Shown piece by piece: positions 24,922-54,728 of a stretch of 64,000 nucleotides of DNA. The notes below the pieces were generated by a model. The model was given only the letters and a program-made list of their open reading frames with translations, searched no databases and was not told the DNA's origin. Made by a program: the position numbers and the translations under genes. The stretch covers positions 1-64,000 of IMG/VR virus record IMGVR_UViG_3300046535_001489; one strand, given 5' to 3'. The stretch comes from a virus. How positions within the stretch are numbered: the first letter of the stretch is position 1; every line of letters starts with the position of its first letter.

Positions 24922-25040
24922 AATTGTTTTATCTTACGCATATGCCCACCACACTTAGTACACCGAGGTCCAGCTCCCCCTCCAGAAGGCCCTGCTAATG
25001 ATTTAGTAACTATAGTCCCGCAATTATCGCATTTCCACAT
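24918..25040 (-). CDS. Zinc-ribbon microprotein inserted between the two polymerase genes
   Basis: 40 residues. It opens MWKCDNCGTIV and later has RCTKCGGHMRKIKQL, a four-Cys ribbon. Its ATG overlaps the TAA of the UDG-exonuclease gene (TAATG), and its TGA overlaps the start of the polymerase gene (ATGA). The three adjacent genes therefore occupy three frames. It sits exactly where the exonuclease domain is interrupted. It could be a selfish or adaptor insert; function unknown. Confidence 0.7.
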   Translation of the reverse strand: MWKCDNCGTIVTKSLAGPSGGGAGPRCTKCGGHMRKIKQL

Positions 25041-25972
25041 TATTTACTCGCCAATATCCTAGGAATATCATATGAACCATTCCACCACAGTTTATCACAA
25101 GGATGGCTCAAAAGTTTCTCATGAATTGAGTGATAAGGCCCACCCCAAGGGATAGACATACCTCTATAGTCCATGTAGCTATAACCACAACGCAAAATGA
25201 TGTAATCGCTCCCATCTTCAAGGTCTAGCTCCTCTTCGTCTGAGCCTTTTTGGGGGGTTTCGATATCTACTGAAAGAAATAAACTATTGTCTGCCATCCA
25301 AGCCTGCTCAAACTCGACAGCCCATGCCATAGCAGCCATAGGAGTAGGATCCAGCAGATAACTGCCTTCAATATATTCATAGCCGTCTCTTGCAATCTCC
25401 GTGCCGCGTTGGATATCGTGAATGAGGACTTGAGCCCAGGCGGTTTTTCCGCGCATGACAAAGCTAGGGTGTACCGTTGGCAGCACCCATGTTTTATACT
25501 TTGCACTCCAGAACACATAGCCCCGTGCGCCTTTGTGCTTTTTGGAGTCGAGGAGTCCTACGCCGTGTTGGTTGGCAAACTCAGGGATCAAACGACGAAA
25601 CGCAGTAACACCCAAAGCAACAATACAGCGAGGCTGAAAGTCAGCAATACACCTGTCAAGGTTAGGGCTACAGTAATCAATAGCATCTTGAGCATAGGAT
25701 TCACCGGCTAATTTGTTGTTTGGAGGCCTGCAGAAAAGCACGTTGGCAATTTTGAAGTCATCTCTATTTAGTCCTCCACGTTGCATCATGCGGTCGAGAG
25801 CTTGGCCAGCACGGCCTTGGAAGGGTAGGCCAACTGGCACCTCATCAGCCCCGAGAGCCTCACCTACTAAAAGTGTGCCGTTGGCTCCTGTACCACTCAC
25901 TTCCATAAAGCCTATGCCGTCGCCATAAAGACTACAGCCTCTGCAGGAATTGGGTTTGACTAGAAGGGGCAT
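25040..25972 (-). CDS. Uracil-DNA glycosylase-like domain fused to N-terminal part of 3'-5' exonuclease
   Basis: 310 residues. Residues 10-195 are a family-4/SPO1-type UDG: C10/C13, VGEALGADEVPVGLPFQG (motif A), FCRPPNN and TVHPSFVMR. Residues about 230-310 begin the polymerase-associated exonuclease: SVDIETP (Exo I D236/E238) and LWWNGSYDIP (Exo II). The gene stops 8 residues after Exo II. In phages such as SPO1, UDG-like, exonuclease and polymerase domains sit in one protein; here the protein ends early and the rest is a separate gene. Confidence 0.85.
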   Translation of the reverse strand: MPLLVKPNSCRGCSLYGDGIGFMEVSGTGANGTLLVGEALGADEVPVGLPFQGRAGQALDRMMQRGGLNRDDFKIANVLFCRPPNNKLAGESYAQDAIDYCSPNLDRCIADFQPRCIVALGVTAFRRLIPEFANQHGVGLLDSKKHKGARGYVFWSAKYKTWVLPTVHPSFVMRGKTAWAQVLIHDIQRGTEIARDGYEYIEGSYLLDPTPMAAMAWAVEFEQAWMADNSLFLSVDIETPQKGSDEEELDLEDGSDYIILRCGYSYMDYRGMSIPWGGPYHSIHEKLLSHPCDKLWWNGSYDIPRILASK

Positions 25973-35937: not shown

Positions 35938-36114
35938 CTAAAAGTCCATCTTGTCATGAATCCAATCAAGGTCTGATTGCATATCCTTAATCTGCGCTAA
36001 AAGGGGCTCGACATCTTCCCATCTGCACCAAGCTCCGATTGGAGATTCTTCAATATCTATATTGTAATTATAATCTCCTACAATAACTACTTCTTCAATT
36101 TCGTATCGTTTCAT
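35938..36114 (-). CDS. Small hypothetical protein
   Basis: 58 residues from ATG 36114 that overlaps the RNA ligase stop (ATGA). IGAWCRWEDVEPLLAQIKDM resembles a widespread small phage protein domain. Acidic. Function unknown. Confidence 0.55.
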   Translation of the reverse strand: MKRYEIEEVVIVGDYNYNIDIEESPIGAWCRWEDVEPLLAQIKDMQSDLDWIHDKMDF

Positions 36115-36713
36115 GCCACCACCAACACATTCACCGGCCACGCAATCCCCATCTCCCTCTTCGTCACACTCGCCCACGCCAGCGGCTTCGCAATCGTCTC
36201 CTCCAGCAGAAACACAAACCCCTCAATCTCTGGTGACTCCTCTAGCTCAGCCTTGACTGAATCAAACAGCTCCTGGTCGGTAAATCCAGCCTTCGAGGTA
36301 ATCTTCGTCTGCCCACGATTCACAATCAACCCGCTGCCAGTCATAGGACTCACACATAGCATAAACGGCTCCTCGCATTGCATGGGGTTGCCTTTGATGT
36401 TTGGCCCAAAGGCTTCGTAAATGCCATCGTTGAGCTTGCCGCCGGGAGCGACCCGCTTAGCATTCACATAGGCAATATGCAGCAGCATATCTTCAGCTGG
36501 AAAAGTGTCAACGTCGAGCTGACATAGAGCAGCATCAGGGTCTGGGGGTGCTGGATACCATCGATATGGCAATCCTTTCTGCACTACCACTTGTACTCCA
36601 TCTAGCTTAATCGTCAGCAATCCCTGCTTTTCTCTCATCCAGGCTGACTCAGGATTAATCTGAGGCACAGCCATGCCACTGGCATCCCTCACAAACAACG
36701 GTACGACTTTCAT
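36111..36713 (-). CDS. RNA ligase-like nucleotidyltransferase
   Basis: 200 residues. Motif I LLTIKLDGVQVV (Lys36, the AMP acceptor in KxDG), motif III/IIIa YEAFGPNIKGNP (residues about 118-130), motif IV EGFVFLL and motif V-like ASVTKREMGIAWP. These are the covalent nucleotidyltransferase motifs of phage RNA ligases of the Rnl2-like or DUF5565-like type. The size suits a minimal ligase. It is near a phosphatase and a RapZ-like gene. Confidence 0.75.
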   Translation of the reverse strand: MKVVPLFVRDASGMAVPQINPESAWMREKQGLLTIKLDGVQVVVQKGLPYRWYPAPPDPDAALCQLDVDTFPAEDMLLHIAYVNAKRVAPGGKLNDGIYEAFGPNIKGNPMQCEEPFMLCVSPMTGSGLIVNRGQTKITSKAGFTDQELFDSVKAELEESPEIEGFVFLLEETIAKPLAWASVTKREMGIAWPVNVLVVA

Positions 36714-39457: not shown

Positions 39458-40552
39458 CTATGCCGTCACCATCGTTCCGCGCCTCTCCAACCACGTCAGA
39501 TGAGCTGGATTGTGGCACGCAACTATCGGACATCCCATCGTTGTACACCTATGTTCCATGACTATGCCATTGACGACTTGGGTATCGATAACCGAGCCAA
39601 ACTGCATGGTGGCATAGTTATTGTCGTTTGTAGCCACTGCTGTTGTCTGCTTCGATGCAGTGGAATTCTTCGCTCCTGGCACATCAGCCAGCGCCGCCTC
39701 AATATCAGCAGCCAAATCCGCTACATCAGCTTCTCTACCCTCATACACCGCCAACGCATGCTCAAACCTCAACTTATCCACATACAACTCATGCAAATAC
39801 TGCTCCTGCTTCAAACTCTCCACAGCCTTTTTGCAATGCTCCTTTCTCACATGTTCTATTGCTCCCCAGTAGTCCTCCACTCCGGCAGTAATCATCAGTG
39901 CACACAGTGCTGTTCCAGTGCGCCCATGACCCCCATGGCATGCTATCACTGTTTTAGCTGGCAAAGCTTCCCATAAGTGCTGCCAGAAATCCAGCTCAAC
40001 CGGGGGGATTCCCATATCGGTCCAATCCAAGCTCAGCAATTGAGCAGTCATCACTTGGGGTTCGGGTTTGGGCACAAAGGATTCGAGCTTCTCCAACAGC
40101 GCCTTTGGCACTGTGCTAAGCGATCTTACAAACTTAGACGACGTATCACTCTTTGGCCGCACATTTCCAGCAAGGTCAATAATGAGATTCCACTGATCAG
40201 AATACTCCTTCAACCCCTGCCAGCTCGAAGCATAGAGAGCTTTGCCTTCGTGCTCAAAGACAACTTTACTTCCAGTGTGGTCACAGGTTGGGCCAGAGAT
40301 ATAACCACTATTACCACTATAACTATAACCATTCGGCCATTGATTATTTGACTGCGGCACATTTGCCCCACCCTGCCATCCACCCGCCGCTTTACTCCCT
40401 TTCTTCACCAACATCGGTAGTTGTGTTGCCATACTCTCCTCTAGCATTTCTGCTTCTAGGTAATTCTGAATCTCATCCATTGAAGGGTCTAGGAATGCAC
40501 GGCCCTTTGCAGCCTTAGCCACTTTCGCCTTCTTTTCGCGCCTACGCCCCAT
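39458..40552 (-). CDS. Dual-specificity/tyrosine-type phosphatase
   Basis: 364 residues from ATG 40552, which has GTGAGGT upstream. The P-loop IACHGGHGRTGTALC carries the catalytic C-x5-R (Cys at about 205), preceded by a DWTDMGIPP loop with the general-acid Asp. About 90 low-complexity residues (including NGYSYSGNSGYISG) lie N-terminal, and a C-terminal tail has a Cys/His pair (MGCPIVACHNPAHLTW). It could remove phosphates from protein, sugar or RNA 5' ends; the substrate cannot be read from sequence. It follows the PEP-synthase-like gene. Confidence 0.8.
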   Translation of the reverse strand: MGRRREKKAKVAKAAKGRAFLDPSMDEIQNYLEAEMLEESMATQLPMLVKKGSKAAGGWQGGANVPQSNNQWPNGYSYSGNSGYISGPTCDHTGSKVVFEHEGKALYASSWQGLKEYSDQWNLIIDLAGNVRPKSDTSSKFVRSLSTVPKALLEKLESFVPKPEPQVMTAQLLSLDWTDMGIPPVELDFWQHLWEALPAKTVIACHGGHGRTGTALCALMITAGVEDYWGAIEHVRKEHCKKAVESLKQEQYLHELYVDKLRFEHALAVYEGREADVADLAADIEAALADVPGAKNSTASKQTTAVATNDNNYATMQFGSVIDTQVVNGIVMEHRCTTMGCPIVACHNPAHLTWLERRGTMVTA

Positions 40553-40563
40553 TGAGAATAACC

Positions 40564-42777
40564 TCACTTTTTGACTACGAAAGGAAGTTGTTTGCCATCG
40601 TGCCATACAGCGGTGATAGTGAAGTTTGTGTCGTAATGTGCTGCGGTTGCGAGATAGCTTTCTACGATGTAGTTTACACCTTTTTCACTATTCGGATATG
40701 CCGGATAATACCCCCCAGCATCTGATGAATAGCTGCCTTCAGCTCCATAATCTTGCAGGGGCTTCAGAAACTCCTGCACATTCTCCACAGCAACCTGCAC
40801 CGTTCTCGAAAAGTACCCAATCTCCCCTACAGCAAACTGGAAATGCATGCTCACTATATTCCCGGACTGAGCTTCATATCTTACATGAATTTTAGTGACT
40901 TTGTGCTCTATGGGATTGTAGACGATCTTTGAGAGCTTTGTTGGGCCACTTGGGTTATCTGGCTCAACAGCTAGAGGTTCTTCTTCTTTAGTATCCTCAA
41001 TCTCCATTGGTTTATCATCGATAATTTCAATGATGTCGTCGTCAGACTCATCACTATCATTAGAGTCTTCTTCAGGCAACTCACGGCTCATTCGCTCAGC
41101 AACCACAATCGGCTGCTGAAGCTTATACTGCTCCACAAGCTCAGCCGCTCGTGGATTCGTAAACTCCTTTGCTACCTGCAACGCTGCCCAACCTGCTTCG
41201 GCAATAATAGTTAGATTCTGCTCAGCAGCATAGGTAAATGTCAGGTCGTCCCCAGTAAACTTATTCATCCACCAGCCGTTATTATGTGCTTGATTCACAG
41301 CTAGATTGAGCTTTTCTGTCATGGCTAGCACATTAGCATGTGTTGGCCAGCGAAGCATCTCCAAAATAGCCGTATCCAACTCAATCAATGCTGCTGTACA
41401 CTTTCCCCACTCTTTACCACCATAACCCTGTGGCCACGAGTCATACACAAACGCTTCGTGGGCAATTTTTAGCATCTGCCGGGATGAGAAGAACTGTTTG
41501 AAGGAGAGCTGATAGATATTACTTCGTAGAGTTGTTGTTCCGCCCCCTCCAGGCCGATGCCTTGCTTCTCCATGAGCTGCAGCCAGTCCCATTCTCAGCA
41601 TCACTGCAGCACTAACCCCCAACCACACCCCATACCCATTGCTCATTGCAGGGGCATTGTGGAGCGCCACGAGCATCAGTTTGATGGCTTGGGCTCTCTC
41701 AGACCTATCGCTATCACTAAAATCCAGCACCAACCCAATCCCCAAACCCCTCATCACCGCTTTAGGATCTGGAGGTCGAATGTCGGCTTTAGGCTCCTTC
41801 TCCAGCCATTCCCCAACCACTGGCATTCTCGATGTCATAATGGGGATTCGATTGAGCAGACAATGCACCCCATAGTGGGATATCACACTCCCGCCAAGAT
41901 GCACCACAACTGTGCCTTGCCGAATCTCAGCTGTTTGGGATTCCCACAGCTGCAAGTCCCCCGAAGCCTCAAGAATCCTCTCCACCTGCACACGCTGAGG
42001 AATGTAGTCTCGCTCAATCCCAGCAATCTTAGGGCCTGCGCGGAGTTGGGTGAAGTGCCAACTATTCTTTCGCACTGCTTCAACATATGGTGAGCTATCC
42101 TCGCCCACCCCTGCAGCACGAATTACAGCTTCATCCAAATCCCCAAACGGCGCACCGATAAGTGGAAGCTCAATCGACTCATGCCCCGAAGTGGCCCCAT
42201 CATGCCCTACACCTACTGAAATTTTGTAGGGAGTAATAACTGCATTTGCAGTGGCTCCTTCGATCAGCGGGCACAGCAACACTTCAGCATGTGGATCTGC
42301 GGCTTGGGCTTCATGAAAGATAGCTCGCAGAGCTTCTTTATCGTTTTTAGCCACAGGCCGGCTGTCAACAAAGCCATGCCGGGGTCGCTCGGGGCACGGT
42401 CTGGCGAAGTAGGGTGGAGAATATATATAAGGACTCGATGCCCCTACAATAATATCAATATCCCCCTCTTCACCGATGATATAGTAGGGTCTGGGCACAG
42501 TCAAACTACTCTTATGGGCAAGAGTAATATACCCTCTAGACTTCTGCGTGCGAGGCTGCACGAATCCTCTATTCACCGCAGCTGTACGGCTATCAATACT
42601 CTCCCCAACTGCAACGCATTCACTCTCCTCACATATATGATGAATCTCGCAAAACGGCTCCTTGCACAAAATACACAGAGGCTCGACTTTGACTTTCGGC
42701 ACATCTCCCTCCACTGCTGGCGAATTAGGCAGATACTTCTTCGAGAGTTGGGCTAGCGTTTGCGGGCTGAGAGCCAT
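40564..42777 (-). CDS. PEP-synthase-like protein with swivelling His domain
   Basis: 737 residues from ATG 42777; GAAGGAG upstream. Residues 35-54 are Cys-rich (CILCKEPFCEIHHICEESEC), a zinc knuckle. Residues about 130-250 resemble an ATP-grasp/PEP-synthase-like ATP-binding part (GFVDSRP, AEVLLCPLIEGATANAVIT, then FTQLRAGP). Residues 280-325 match the PEP-utiliser mobile domain (GTVVVHLGGSVISHYGV, His301 as phospho-acceptor), then IPIM. The rest is helical, with an acidic linker (about 590-625) and a C-terminal domain. A phosphotransfer enzyme, possibly degraded. Inference. Confidence 0.55.
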   Translation of the reverse strand: MALSPQTLAQLSKKYLPNSPAVEGDVPKVKVEPLCILCKEPFCEIHHICEESECVAVGESIDSRTAAVNRGFVQPRTQKSRGYITLAHKSSLTVPRPYYIIGEEGDIDIIVGASSPYIYSPPYFARPCPERPRHGFVDSRPVAKNDKEALRAIFHEAQAADPHAEVLLCPLIEGATANAVITPYKISVGVGHDGATSGHESIELPLIGAPFGDLDEAVIRAAGVGEDSSPYVEAVRKNSWHFTQLRAGPKIAGIERDYIPQRVQVERILEASGDLQLWESQTAEIRQGTVVVHLGGSVISHYGVHCLLNRIPIMTSRMPVVGEWLEKEPKADIRPPDPKAVMRGLGIGLVLDFSDSDRSERAQAIKLMLVALHNAPAMSNGYGVWLGVSAAVMLRMGLAAAHGEARHRPGGGGTTTLRSNIYQLSFKQFFSSRQMLKIAHEAFVYDSWPQGYGGKEWGKCTAALIELDTAILEMLRWPTHANVLAMTEKLNLAVNQAHNNGWWMNKFTGDDLTFTYAAEQNLTIIAEAGWAALQVAKEFTNPRAAELVEQYKLQQPIVVAERMSRELPEEDSNDSDESDDDIIEIIDDKPMEIEDTKEEEPLAVEPDNPSGPTKLSKIVYNPIEHKVTKIHVRYEAQSGNIVSMHFQFAVGEIGYFSRTVQVAVENVQEFLKPLQDYGAEGSYSSDAGGYYPAYPNSEKGVNYIVESYLATAAHYDTNFTITAVWHDGKQLPFVVKK

Positions 42778-43144
42778 TAACTTTCTCCTTCTTCTTCAAA
42801 TCCCTATGCTCAATTTCCACATCCCAACCATTTTCACGGCACTGCTGAGCAATAATCTCCACAATCGCTACAGAACGATGTTTGCCGCCTTGGCAACCGA
42901 TAGCAGCTGTGTAGAAACCAAGACTTAGCTGTGTCATAGCTTTATTGATAATCACCTGCGCCCCCGCGCACTTCGTCACAAATGCCTGGACATCAGAGTC
43001 AAGCCCATTGAGCTTTCGCAGCTTTGGATGCCGCCACGGGTTACGAACAGTTTTGCGGGCATCGTGGACTCTTGTGAAGCTGCTATTTGAGATTTTACCA
43101 TTCTTGTAGGCAAACGAAATGAGCTTGACTTTCTTCGCTTCCAT
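42725..43144 (-). CDS. RapZ C-terminal-domain protein
   Basis: 139 residues. RVHDARKTVRNPWRHPKLRK, then AAIGCQGGKHRSVAIVE, and IEHRDLKKKE match the C-terminal domain of RapZ/YvcJ (GC-GG-HRSVA and HRDL). In Escherichia coli this half of RapZ binds small RNAs and RNase E. The P-loop N-terminal half is absent, as in stand-alone phage forms. It overlaps the PEP-synthase-like gene by 53 bases, showing a shared mRNA. Confidence 0.85.
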   Translation of the reverse strand: MEAKKVKLISFAYKNGKISNSSFTRVHDARKTVRNPWRHPKLRKLNGLDSDVQAFVTKCAGAQVIINKAMTQLSLGFYTAAIGCQGGKHRSVAIVEIIAQQCRENGWDVEIEHRDLKKKEKVNGSQPANASPTLEEVSA

Positions 43145-52615: not shown

Positions 52616-53884
52616 ATGTACCATCCCCAAATCGTGGCTCGACGCATGAGCAACATGGCAACAGTAATTAGAGGCTCAATTGACCCTAATTTCGACTTTA
52701 AGGAGTATTCGATAGCCGAAGTTGAGCAGCGATGCGGGGAGTTGGAGAAAATCTACGATCCTTTGAGCGGAAATCTCGTGCAGCCGCTCAACGCCGAGGC
52801 TGAAGCCTTCATTCGGCATGAAATCAACCGCTGCAAGGTCGATTTTCTCTATTGGGCGACTCGATATGCGAAATTGAAGTCGAAAGACGCTGAACTTATC
52901 AGACTTAACCCCACAGCCGTCCAAAAACTGCTCATCGACAAGATCGGAGCCGCCGAATTAGCTGTTTTCACTGAAAAAACCGGCGATGGCATCCTGTTTC
53001 AAGTCCTGAAAGCTCGCCAGTTGGGGGTTTCGACTATTTCAGAGATGATCATAGCCCATCGGGTGTTCTTTTATGCCAATACGACGGCTCTAGTGGCTGC
53101 TGACGTCGATGACCATACCCAGGGGCTCTATAATATGCTGCTGAGGGTGTTTGATAACCTTCCGTGGTGGATGAAGCCCCGCTCCGCTGACCCAAAGCGC
53201 GACTATCGAGTCAAAAACAAGCTCCTTTCCTTCGCCGACCAAGACTCCATCATCCAAATCGGCAGCAGCAAGAATCTCCAAGGCGGCGATTCGGGCCAGG
53301 AGAAGGGTTCGATGGGTACGGGGCAGACGTTGCCGCTGGTGCATCTCAGCGAGCTAGCGCTGTGGGAAAACCCATGGCAAATTGACGACGCCCTGATGCC
53401 CTCCATTCCCATGAGCAGCAGAACCTTTGCGATCTTTGAGTCTACTGCCAAAGGGCGCGGCAACTGGTGGCATGAGAGCTGGGAAGCGAGCAAAAAGGGG
53501 TTGGGGCGCAGACGGCCCGTTTTCATTCCGTGGTACACCGATCCAGACACATATAAGCTCCCGGCACCGAGCGATTGGTCGCCCTCAACAGCTGCCCTCA
53601 ACCATGCCGACCGCGTGAAGGAGCTTTCGACTAAGTGGTTGCCTGCTTCGGTGCAATTGACCAAAAATCAGCTCTACTGGTGGGAAATCACCAAAGCCGA
53701 TTACATCTCCAGAGGCGTGCTACACAAATTTCTCGCGGAATACACCGCAGACGACATGGAGAGCTTCCAGAACAGCACTGTGGGGGTGTTTCCTTCAGAG
53801 ATGATTGATGACATGCGCCAGAAGGCGGGGCGGATGCCGGTGTTGGTGGAGGTGAGGCCAAAGATGGAGTTGAGGAATGGCTAG
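52616..53884 (+). CDS. Large terminase, ATPase part (TerL-A)
   Basis: 422 residues. Walker A-like KARQLGVST (132-140), Walker B region LVHLSE (241-246), coupling motif ESTAKGRGN (275-283). The reading frame ends at TAG after RNG, and the nuclease domain is a separate gene starting inside the last 8 bases. ATP-driven DNA translocation into the prohead. Standard TerL joins both domains in one chain. Confidence 0.8.
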   Translation: MYHPQIVARRMSNMATVIRGSIDPNFDFKEYSIAEVEQRCGELEKIYDPLSGNLVQPLNAEAEAFIRHEINRCKVDFLYWATRYAKLKSKDAELIRLNPTAVQKLLIDKIGAAELAVFTEKTGDGILFQVLKARQLGVSTISEMIIAHRVFFYANTTALVAADVDDHTQGLYNMLLRVFDNLPWWMKPRSADPKRDYRVKNKLLSFADQDSIIQIGSSKNLQGGDSGQEKGSMGTGQTLPLVHLSELALWENPWQIDDALMPSIPMSSRTFAIFESTAKGRGNWWHESWEASKKGLGRRRPVFIPWYTDPDTYKLPAPSDWSPSTAALNHADRVKELSTKWLPASVQLTKNQLYWWEITKADYISRGVLHKFLAEYTADDMESFQNSTVGVFPSEMIDDMRQKAGRMPVLVEVRPKMELRNG

Positions 53885-54728
53885 GGATGTTCGTAGCCTC
53901 ATAGCTCCAGGAATGGGCCTCCATGTCATTGAAGAAGTCAGCCGTTTTGAATCTGACTGGTGGAACGGTCGCCTCCTCATCTGGGAAGGCCCCGAACAAG
54001 GTGAAACCTATGCTATTGGCGTCGATCCCGCTGAAGGCGCTGGCCAAGATCGTTCAGTCTGTGAAATCATCAAAGTTGGCAACCTCTACCACCCAGATGT
54101 CCAAGTCGCCGAATTTGCCTGCGACTATCTTGATCCGATATACTTTGCAGACGTAGTGAACACCATTGGCCGCTTCTACAAAGACCCAGAGGGCACCGAA
54201 GCGTTTGCAACTATAGAATTCAACGCCCCCTGCGGCGACACCATGATCTCCGACCTCTGCAACAGATTAAGTTATACCAATCAGTTTATTTGGAAAGCGT
54301 ACGACAGGATCAACAATGTCTACACGAACAAGTATGGTTGGAGTACTAATAAGGCTACTAGACCGAAAATCATTGCGCGGGGACTACATGCGTTTGGCGT
54401 GGGCGATCTGGTCGTCAACTCACCATTCGTTATCGATGAAATGGAAGATTTCGCGAGAGATCATTTTGTGGCTAAGGCTAAGGCGCGCCATGGAACGCAC
54501 GATGATCGACTGATGGCGCTGTTGATTGGATACTGGGGAGCCCACGACGATGAATTCCTCAATGGTGAAGATATCGGTGAGCAGCGGAGGATGCGGATTG
54601 CTGCGGGGGAGATTCAGCAGGAGATGATTAAGGAGGTTACAGCTAAGAAGAAGGCGGATTTTCAAAATACTGCTATTACCTACCGGCAGATGCAAGAGAG
54701 AGCGAATGAAATGTTTGAGATGGATTAA
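53877..54728 (+). CDS. Large terminase, nuclease part (TerL-N)
   Basis: 283 residues from ATG 53877, overlapping the ATPase stop by ATGGCTAG. RNase H-type nuclease motifs: YAIGVDPAEGAGQD (Asp50), IEFNAP and HDDRLMALLIG. Frame is +1 relative to the ATPase gene. Either separate subunits, a programmed frameshift or an assembly error. Confidence 0.8.
   Translation: MARDVRSLIAPGMGLHVIEEVSRFESDWWNGRLLIWEGPEQGETYAIGVDPAEGAGQDRSVCEIIKVGNLYHPDVQVAEFACDYLDPIYFADVVNTIGRFYKDPEGTEAFATIEFNAPCGDTMISDLCNRLSYTNQFIWKAYDRINNVYTNKYGWSTNKATRPKIIARGLHAFGVGDLVVNSPFVIDEMEDFARDHFVAKAKARHGTHDDRLMALLIGYWGAHDDEFLNGEDIGEQRRMRIAAGEIQQEMIKEVTAKKKADFQNTAITYRQMQERANEMFEMD

Follow-up and report, generated by a model that had tools for sequence, protein, structure and literature searches.

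Rifampin phosphotransferase (RPH), phosphoenolpyruvate (PEP) synthase and pyruvate phosphate dikinase (PPDK) operate by a common relay, in which an ATP-grasp domain phosphorylates a histidine of a swivelling domain and the phosphate is then delivered to a substrate-specific third domain; in RPH this acceptor, the drug-binding domain, sits between the ATP-grasp and His domains. Plant glucan water dikinase is paired with phosphatases of the laforin/SEX4 type, so that a dikinase-type enzyme adds phosphate and a dual-specificity phosphatase (DSP) removes it. Here, we describe a locus in the first 64,000 nucleotides (the window) of the 70,714-base IMG/VR virus record IMGVR_UViG_3300046535_001489, where the gene for a 737-amino-acid dikinase-like protein is followed by one for a protein tyrosine phosphatase (PTP). 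Our analysis unites this fused gene, which has no database family, and the 'PPDK auxiliary metabolic genes' of other phages as one conserved module, whose identity and domain composition we regard as nearly certain. We propose, with a probability of roughly two in three, that it is a phage-borne phosphotransfer module in which a dedicated phosphatase accompanies an ATP-driven histidine-relay phosphotransferase that has a new acceptor domain.

A fused dikinase-like protein and its helical domain

Three open reading frames (ORFs) follow one another on the minus strand, encoding a RapZ C-terminal-domain protein (RapZ-C; 42725-43144), a PEP-synthase-like protein (40564-42777) and a PTP (39458-40606); the features described below within these genes lie on the same strand. 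The original prediction, drawn from the sequence of the window, had placed the three genes at these positions with a 53-base overlap between the first two, which falls exactly at 42725-42777, and a good Shine-Dalgarno sequence can be read ahead of the start of each of these two. Its naming of the genes as a RapZ C-terminal domain, a PEP-synthase-like protein with ATP-grasp and swivelling His domains and a phosphatase holds for all three, and its theme of phosphate transfer is supported by these identities and by the recurrence of the kinase-like gene with the PTP. It overlooked the feature that defines the system, a third domain in the 737-residue protein that is homologous to phrog_20946.

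The 737-residue protein has no sequence match in Pfam, PHROGs or the Protein Data Bank (PDB): neither Pfam PPDK_N nor the PHROG model of phrog_20946 scores on it, and the PEP/pyruvate barrel PF02896 is absent according to Pfam. A BFVD search gave no match, nor did a plasmid search, and PADLOC models match none of the three window proteins. We built an AlphaFold2 model with 29 family members, in which residues about 75-560 form the confident core. The layout comprises an ATP-grasp region (residues 71-266; 41980-42567), a swivelling phosphohistidine domain (residues 267-330; 41788-41979), the helical domain (residues 336-560; 41098-41772) and an acidic linker with a low-confidence C-terminal tail (residues 561-737; 40567-41097; pLDDT mostly <60). 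The low-confidence N-terminal tail contains a Cys/His cluster, CILCKEPFCEIHHICEESEC (42616-42675, residues 35-54), possibly a metal-binding knuckle.

Structural comparison, the check proposed for 40564-42777, yields a dikinase-family fold. In VIA-align, residues 71-330 match RPH best (Z 14.6, root-mean-square deviation (rmsd) 3.5, 236 residues aligned), followed by PPDK (Z 12.7-13.2, 241-245 aligned; the best at Z 13.2, rmsd 4.2 and 242 aligned), the PPDK alignment spanning chain residues 2-502 with the catalytic His included; generic or unrelated ATP-grasp folds score lower, at Z about 10. The ATP-grasp region carries the motifs TQKAxG, RPCPxxPRHGFVxSR, DGATxG and QxRxGP. Across 23 full-length members K79, R126, E165, E233, Q244 and R246 are invariant, and TQK(79), RPCPxxPRHGFVxS, E165, DGATxG, E233, QxR(246)xGP and H301 show almost no variation or none. 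The predicted catalytic His301 (codon 41875-41877) is conserved in 23/23 and 29/29 sequences, and hhalign places its motif, GGSVISH, on the GGxTSH of the PEP-utilizers domain of phage PPDKs. The protein thus resembles RPH and PPDK/PEP synthase in its ATP-grasp and swivelling His domains and in the positions of invariant Lys, Arg, Glu and His residues, and it probably performs dikinase-type phosphotransfer. In contrast to the dikinase family, however, its order is ATP-grasp, His, putative acceptor, and its third domain is neither a PEP barrel nor an RPH drug domain.

This third domain is homologous to phrog_20946 over residues about 390-510 (hmmsearch E 1e-12 to 1e-7; hhalign 97-98%) and is marked by ExRH, GGxxW, HNxG and a Lys: E404, R406, G453, G454, W457, H498, N499 and K506 are invariant in 61/61 sequences, and H407 is present in 60/61. 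Modelled alone with AlphaFold2, it is all-helical (pLDDT 86). The best hit of a fold search, a designed bundle (VIA Z 7.2), scores too low to be meaningful among helical proteins, RPH is absent from the aligned list of fold matches, and the best Foldseek E value is 0.25, although fold novelty is not established by these searches. The domain has no recognised fold, and its invariant polar residues suggest that it is enzyme-like.

Recurrence with a phosphatase gene

The phosphatase of the window is of the PTP/DSP type. It passes the cut-off of Pfam Y_phosphatase (PF00102), bears a P2-type signature and keeps the WPD-loop Asp, the C-X5-R loop (CHGGHGR, 39920-39940) and the Q-loop, with C223, R229 and D197 invariant and Q267 nearly so in 19 sequences. 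An ATG at 40552, which comes right after the stop of the upstream gene and has a GAGG ahead of it, appears the more likely start than 40606, judging by the sequence context.

To collect fused homologues, we searched IMG/VR using a degenerate RPxPxxPRHGF pattern. The 30 stretches found, on 29 contigs, all encode relatives of the 737-residue protein that align with it for hundreds of residues (tblastn E 1e-22 to 1e-74); a more distant relative occurs in the podovirus record MW202742, and bacterial genome contigs (L037-L039) also carry the fused gene. The kinase-like gene and the PTP recur together, as the search of gene neighbourhoods suggested with the original prediction shows: in 35/35 testable fused loci including the window (24 from fetched DNA and 11 from whole contigs, with L040 left out), the next gene downstream, on the same strand, encodes a PTP. 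In many loci the two genes overlap, by 1 to 56 bases and often by four bases or more. A window-type PTP was found in 0/50 control phages, picked by a DNA polymerase motif, in a search with a positive control.

The carriers of this pair are mostly unrelated. When we clustered the 1,392 predicted proteins of 15 whole or nearly whole fused-form contigs and the window, only five families occurred in at least five genomes: the fused enzyme, the PTP and families that, from reading their sequences, we call DNA polymerase A, HNH-like and ribonucleotide-reductase-like. The window has one to five families in common with each other fused-form contig, and three contig pairs have 16 or more. Since so few other families are common, the fused enzyme and PTP form the common denominator of these phages, and recurrence among phages with almost nothing else in common argues for a strongly selected function. 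No co-occurring gene names a substrate, as the only recurrent families outside the module are the last three of these five.

Several loci have features of their own. Two of the loci (L008 and L024) belong to one 112-kb contig (G006), which carries the fused gene with its PTP twice, and in another contig (G017, 87498-89047) two further PTP genes lie about 10 kb from the module. Near the fused gene of Acidobacteria lie Prok-E2_D and ThiF (E1-like) genes (L038:13593-14330, L039:13957-14865), a neighbourhood that resembles a PRTRC-type cassette of mobile elements.

The split cluster and its PPDK annotation

Searching phage genomes with the PTP, we came upon the isolates RcZahn, TM16, DLP5 and Vibrio vB_VhaS-a, which have a 'pyruvate phosphate dikinase' gene, small ORFs, a PTP, a protein of around 330 amino acids and mostly a second PTP. 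The 330-residue protein is phrog_20946, annotated as of unknown function and encoded on its own in phages of Vibrio, Stenotrophomonas, Rhizobium and Rhodobacter. The full cluster, PPDK (phrog_18609)-PTP (phrog_17568)-phrog_20946-PTP, is found in the Stenotrophomonas phages DLP3 and DLP5, Rhizobium phage TM16 and Rhodobacter phage RcZahn; Vibrio vB_VhaS-a has one PTP only. A scan with phrog_20946 recovered 68 IMG/VR loci, 54 of which have exactly PPDK-PTP-20946-PTP in order; one more keeps the order although its PPDK frame is broken, and 13 are partial, several of them at the end of the fetched DNA. In the literature searched we found no description of the PPDK-20946-PTP cluster as one system.

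Of the two PTPs in the split clusters, it is the second, behind 20946, that is orthologous to the fused-type PTP (median 72.6 bits, vs 51.4 for the first PTP), and the signatures CxGGHGRTG and YCxxAVE link the two orthologues. Together with the 20946 homology, this orthology indicates that the window gene is, as read from sequence, a fusion of two activities that are neighbours elsewhere, with the same PTP behind it. Split and fused forms agree in their three predicted activities and in the order 20946 then PTP; they differ in that the split cluster keeps kinase and 20946 as separate genes, usually has an extra PTP, and has a kinase much closer in sequence to cellular PPDK than that of the window. 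The phrog_17568 proteins, including DLP05_143 (MG189906) and DLP3_141 (MT110073), are labelled 'thymidylate synthase' in PHROG/GenBank but are actually PTP-family phosphatases (CxGGHGRTG).

The split-type kinases are annotated as PPDK, and Pfam PPDK_N and PEP-utilizers score in 38/38 of them from IMG/VR, with a weak GWD1_pHisD match in 2/38. PEP-utilizers_C (PF02896), the C-terminal PEP/pyruvate TIM barrel, occurs in 0/38 of these phage PPDKs and nowhere in 45 carrier contigs; control genomes were positive in 14/14 cases. Split-type PPDK has been presented as a glycolytic auxiliary gene in Vibrio phage J26 (PMC12038007) and PPDK likewise in Vibrio phage Virtus (PMC9229204); the J26 paper reports structural overlap with PPDK 1GGO over residues 1-527, yet describes a barrel-like domain in its model (PMC12038007). 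Because the defining PEP barrel is absent, the published metabolic function is unsupported, and the split form seems to have been mislabelled as sugar metabolism. Barrel-less PPDK genes listed as auxiliary metabolic genes lie in the PTP/phrog_20946 cluster in L033:3092-5296, L034, L035, L036 and L041-L108.

DNA of phage DLP3 resists 15 restriction enzymes (PMC7326821). Its record (L229, MT110073) also has, at 55-70 kb, genes for a UDP-glucose epimerase, WcaG, WecE, a PIG-L deacetylase and a glycosyltransferase. This sugar/glycosyltransferase cluster may explain the resistance, which we therefore do not use as evidence on the module.

A proposed phosphate relay and its possible substrates

In the mechanism that we propose, the ATP-grasp domain would use ATP to phosphorylate His301 in the swivelling domain; the latter would then swing to the helical third domain with its ExRH, GGxxW, HNxG and Lys residues, where the phosphate would pass to the acceptor. 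The PTP encoded by the next gene would remove or edit this phosphate, making the modification reversible or proofread. The PPDK-PTP-20946-PTP cluster would be the same machine in separate chains, and RapZ-C, where present, an accessory. The obligate presence of the PTP, which sets the module apart from the dikinase family, suggests that what the kinase phosphorylates is edited or reversed. The pairing recalls that of glucan water dikinase with laforin/SEX4, an analogy of logic only; in contrast to the plant system, no carbohydrate-binding domain was found in the phage module.

Some points weigh against this relay. The helical domain has no PDB fold match, above the level of unrelated bundles, that hints at a substrate. 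The N-terminal part of the fused protein has no significant overall match to phage PPDK profiles (hhalign 3.6%, in the His region only), so that a common origin of the two rests on fold and motif. And we infer the catalytic activity of the 737-residue protein and transfer to its third domain, just as a substrate common to kinase and PTP is deduced from synteny only.

As acceptor we tentatively rank a nucleic acid or nucleotide first, followed by a sugar or other small molecule as a possible second and by protein as a doubtful third; the naming of any specific substrate is tentative at best. A broader picture seems to us to have slightly less than even odds: a new system for reversible phosphorylation would be widespread among phages, its dikinase-type His relay using the novel helical HNxG acceptor domain to put phosphate on a macromolecule, either nucleic acid or protein, and its PTP erasing the mark, with fused and split versions in circulation among phages that are unrelated. 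Existing isolates make it testable which molecule the module phosphorylates.

Other accounts of the locus fare less well. The phosphohistidine relay could serve to phosphorylate proteins of the virion or host reversibly, the PTP acting as eraser, as the classical PTP features and the two PTPs of the split type might suggest, but we know of no dikinase-family enzyme that phosphorylates other proteins and found no target, and we consider this unlikely. The module might instead be a small-molecule phosphotransferase like RPH, inactivating or making a nucleotide or antibiotic-like signal, possibly in counter-defence. RPH is indeed the best structural match (Z 14.6), and carriers with few other genes in common are seen with counter-defence genes as well. 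However, the third domain of the window protein follows the His domain, unlike the order in RPH, the helical domain lacks an informative ligand-domain match, PADLOC gives no match and detoxification would not be expected to involve a dedicated phosphatase that reverses it, all of which makes this account rather improbable.

The gene upstream bears on a further alternative, akin to the capture of a host small RNA (sRNA) regulatory switch envisaged in the original prediction, in which RapZ-C brings an RNA and the kinase and PTP phosphorylate and dephosphorylate RNA ends or an RNA-bound regulator, together with an RNA ligase. The RapZ-C protein (42725-43144, 139 amino acids) scores 85.4 bits against PF22740 (E 4.5e-24, cut-off 27) and matches the E. 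coli RapZ C-domain 5o5s (phmmer E 1e-12). Like enterobacterial RapZ, an RNase adapter with a GCxGGxHRS motif, it keeps a basic C-terminal tail and a C-X5-R-like loop (CQGGKHR, 42875-42895, aligned with GCTGGKHRS of E. coli RapZ); in contrast to RapZ, it stands alone, lacks the N-terminal Walker ATPase half and is optional in the module. A 2023 paper on the rhodanese-phosphatase superfamily reportedly treats RapZ-C in phages.

RapZ-C occurs in 14/63 carrier contigs vs 0/50 controls (one-sided Fisher p 1.4e-4) and RNA ligase PF09414 in 7/30 vs 2/50 (p 0.012), p values that are optimistic because the contigs are related. RapZ-C overlaps the module in the window, and in each of the other four RapZ-C-bearing fused contigs it is 0.6-2.8 kb away. 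In those split-type contigs for which the distance was measured, however, it lies 8-13 kb upstream; 49 of the 63 carriers are without it, no RNA-binding domain is recognised in the kinase or PTP, and an sRNA target is not known. RapZ-C is thus enriched in carriers as a companion and is not a core part of the module, and the association with RNA ligase amounts to a weak enrichment. With the kinase and PTP not tied to RNA and the RapZ ATPase half missing, capture of an sRNA switch is not supported, and we hold the wider RNA account to be quite improbable. The window 'RNA ligase' itself (36111-36713, minus strand) matches PHROG 14301 weakly, over residues 3-54 only (E 3e-6), and has no Pfam RNA ligase match.

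A role as auxiliary metabolic gene that turns pyruvate into PEP and back so as to raise the energy supply of the host is close to negligible, as the PPDK annotation, Pfam scores and published claims in its favour are set against the missing barrel, and glycolysis leaves the synteny with PTP and phrog_20946 unexplained.

Two further observations concern other parts of the window. A uracil-DNA-glycosylase superfamily protein (25040-25972, minus strand; PF03167, E 5e-23) adjoins the phage DNA polymerase. On the plus strand, the overlapping ORFs 52616-53884 and 53877-54728 both match terminase large subunit families, as if the ATPase and nuclease halves were separate genes.

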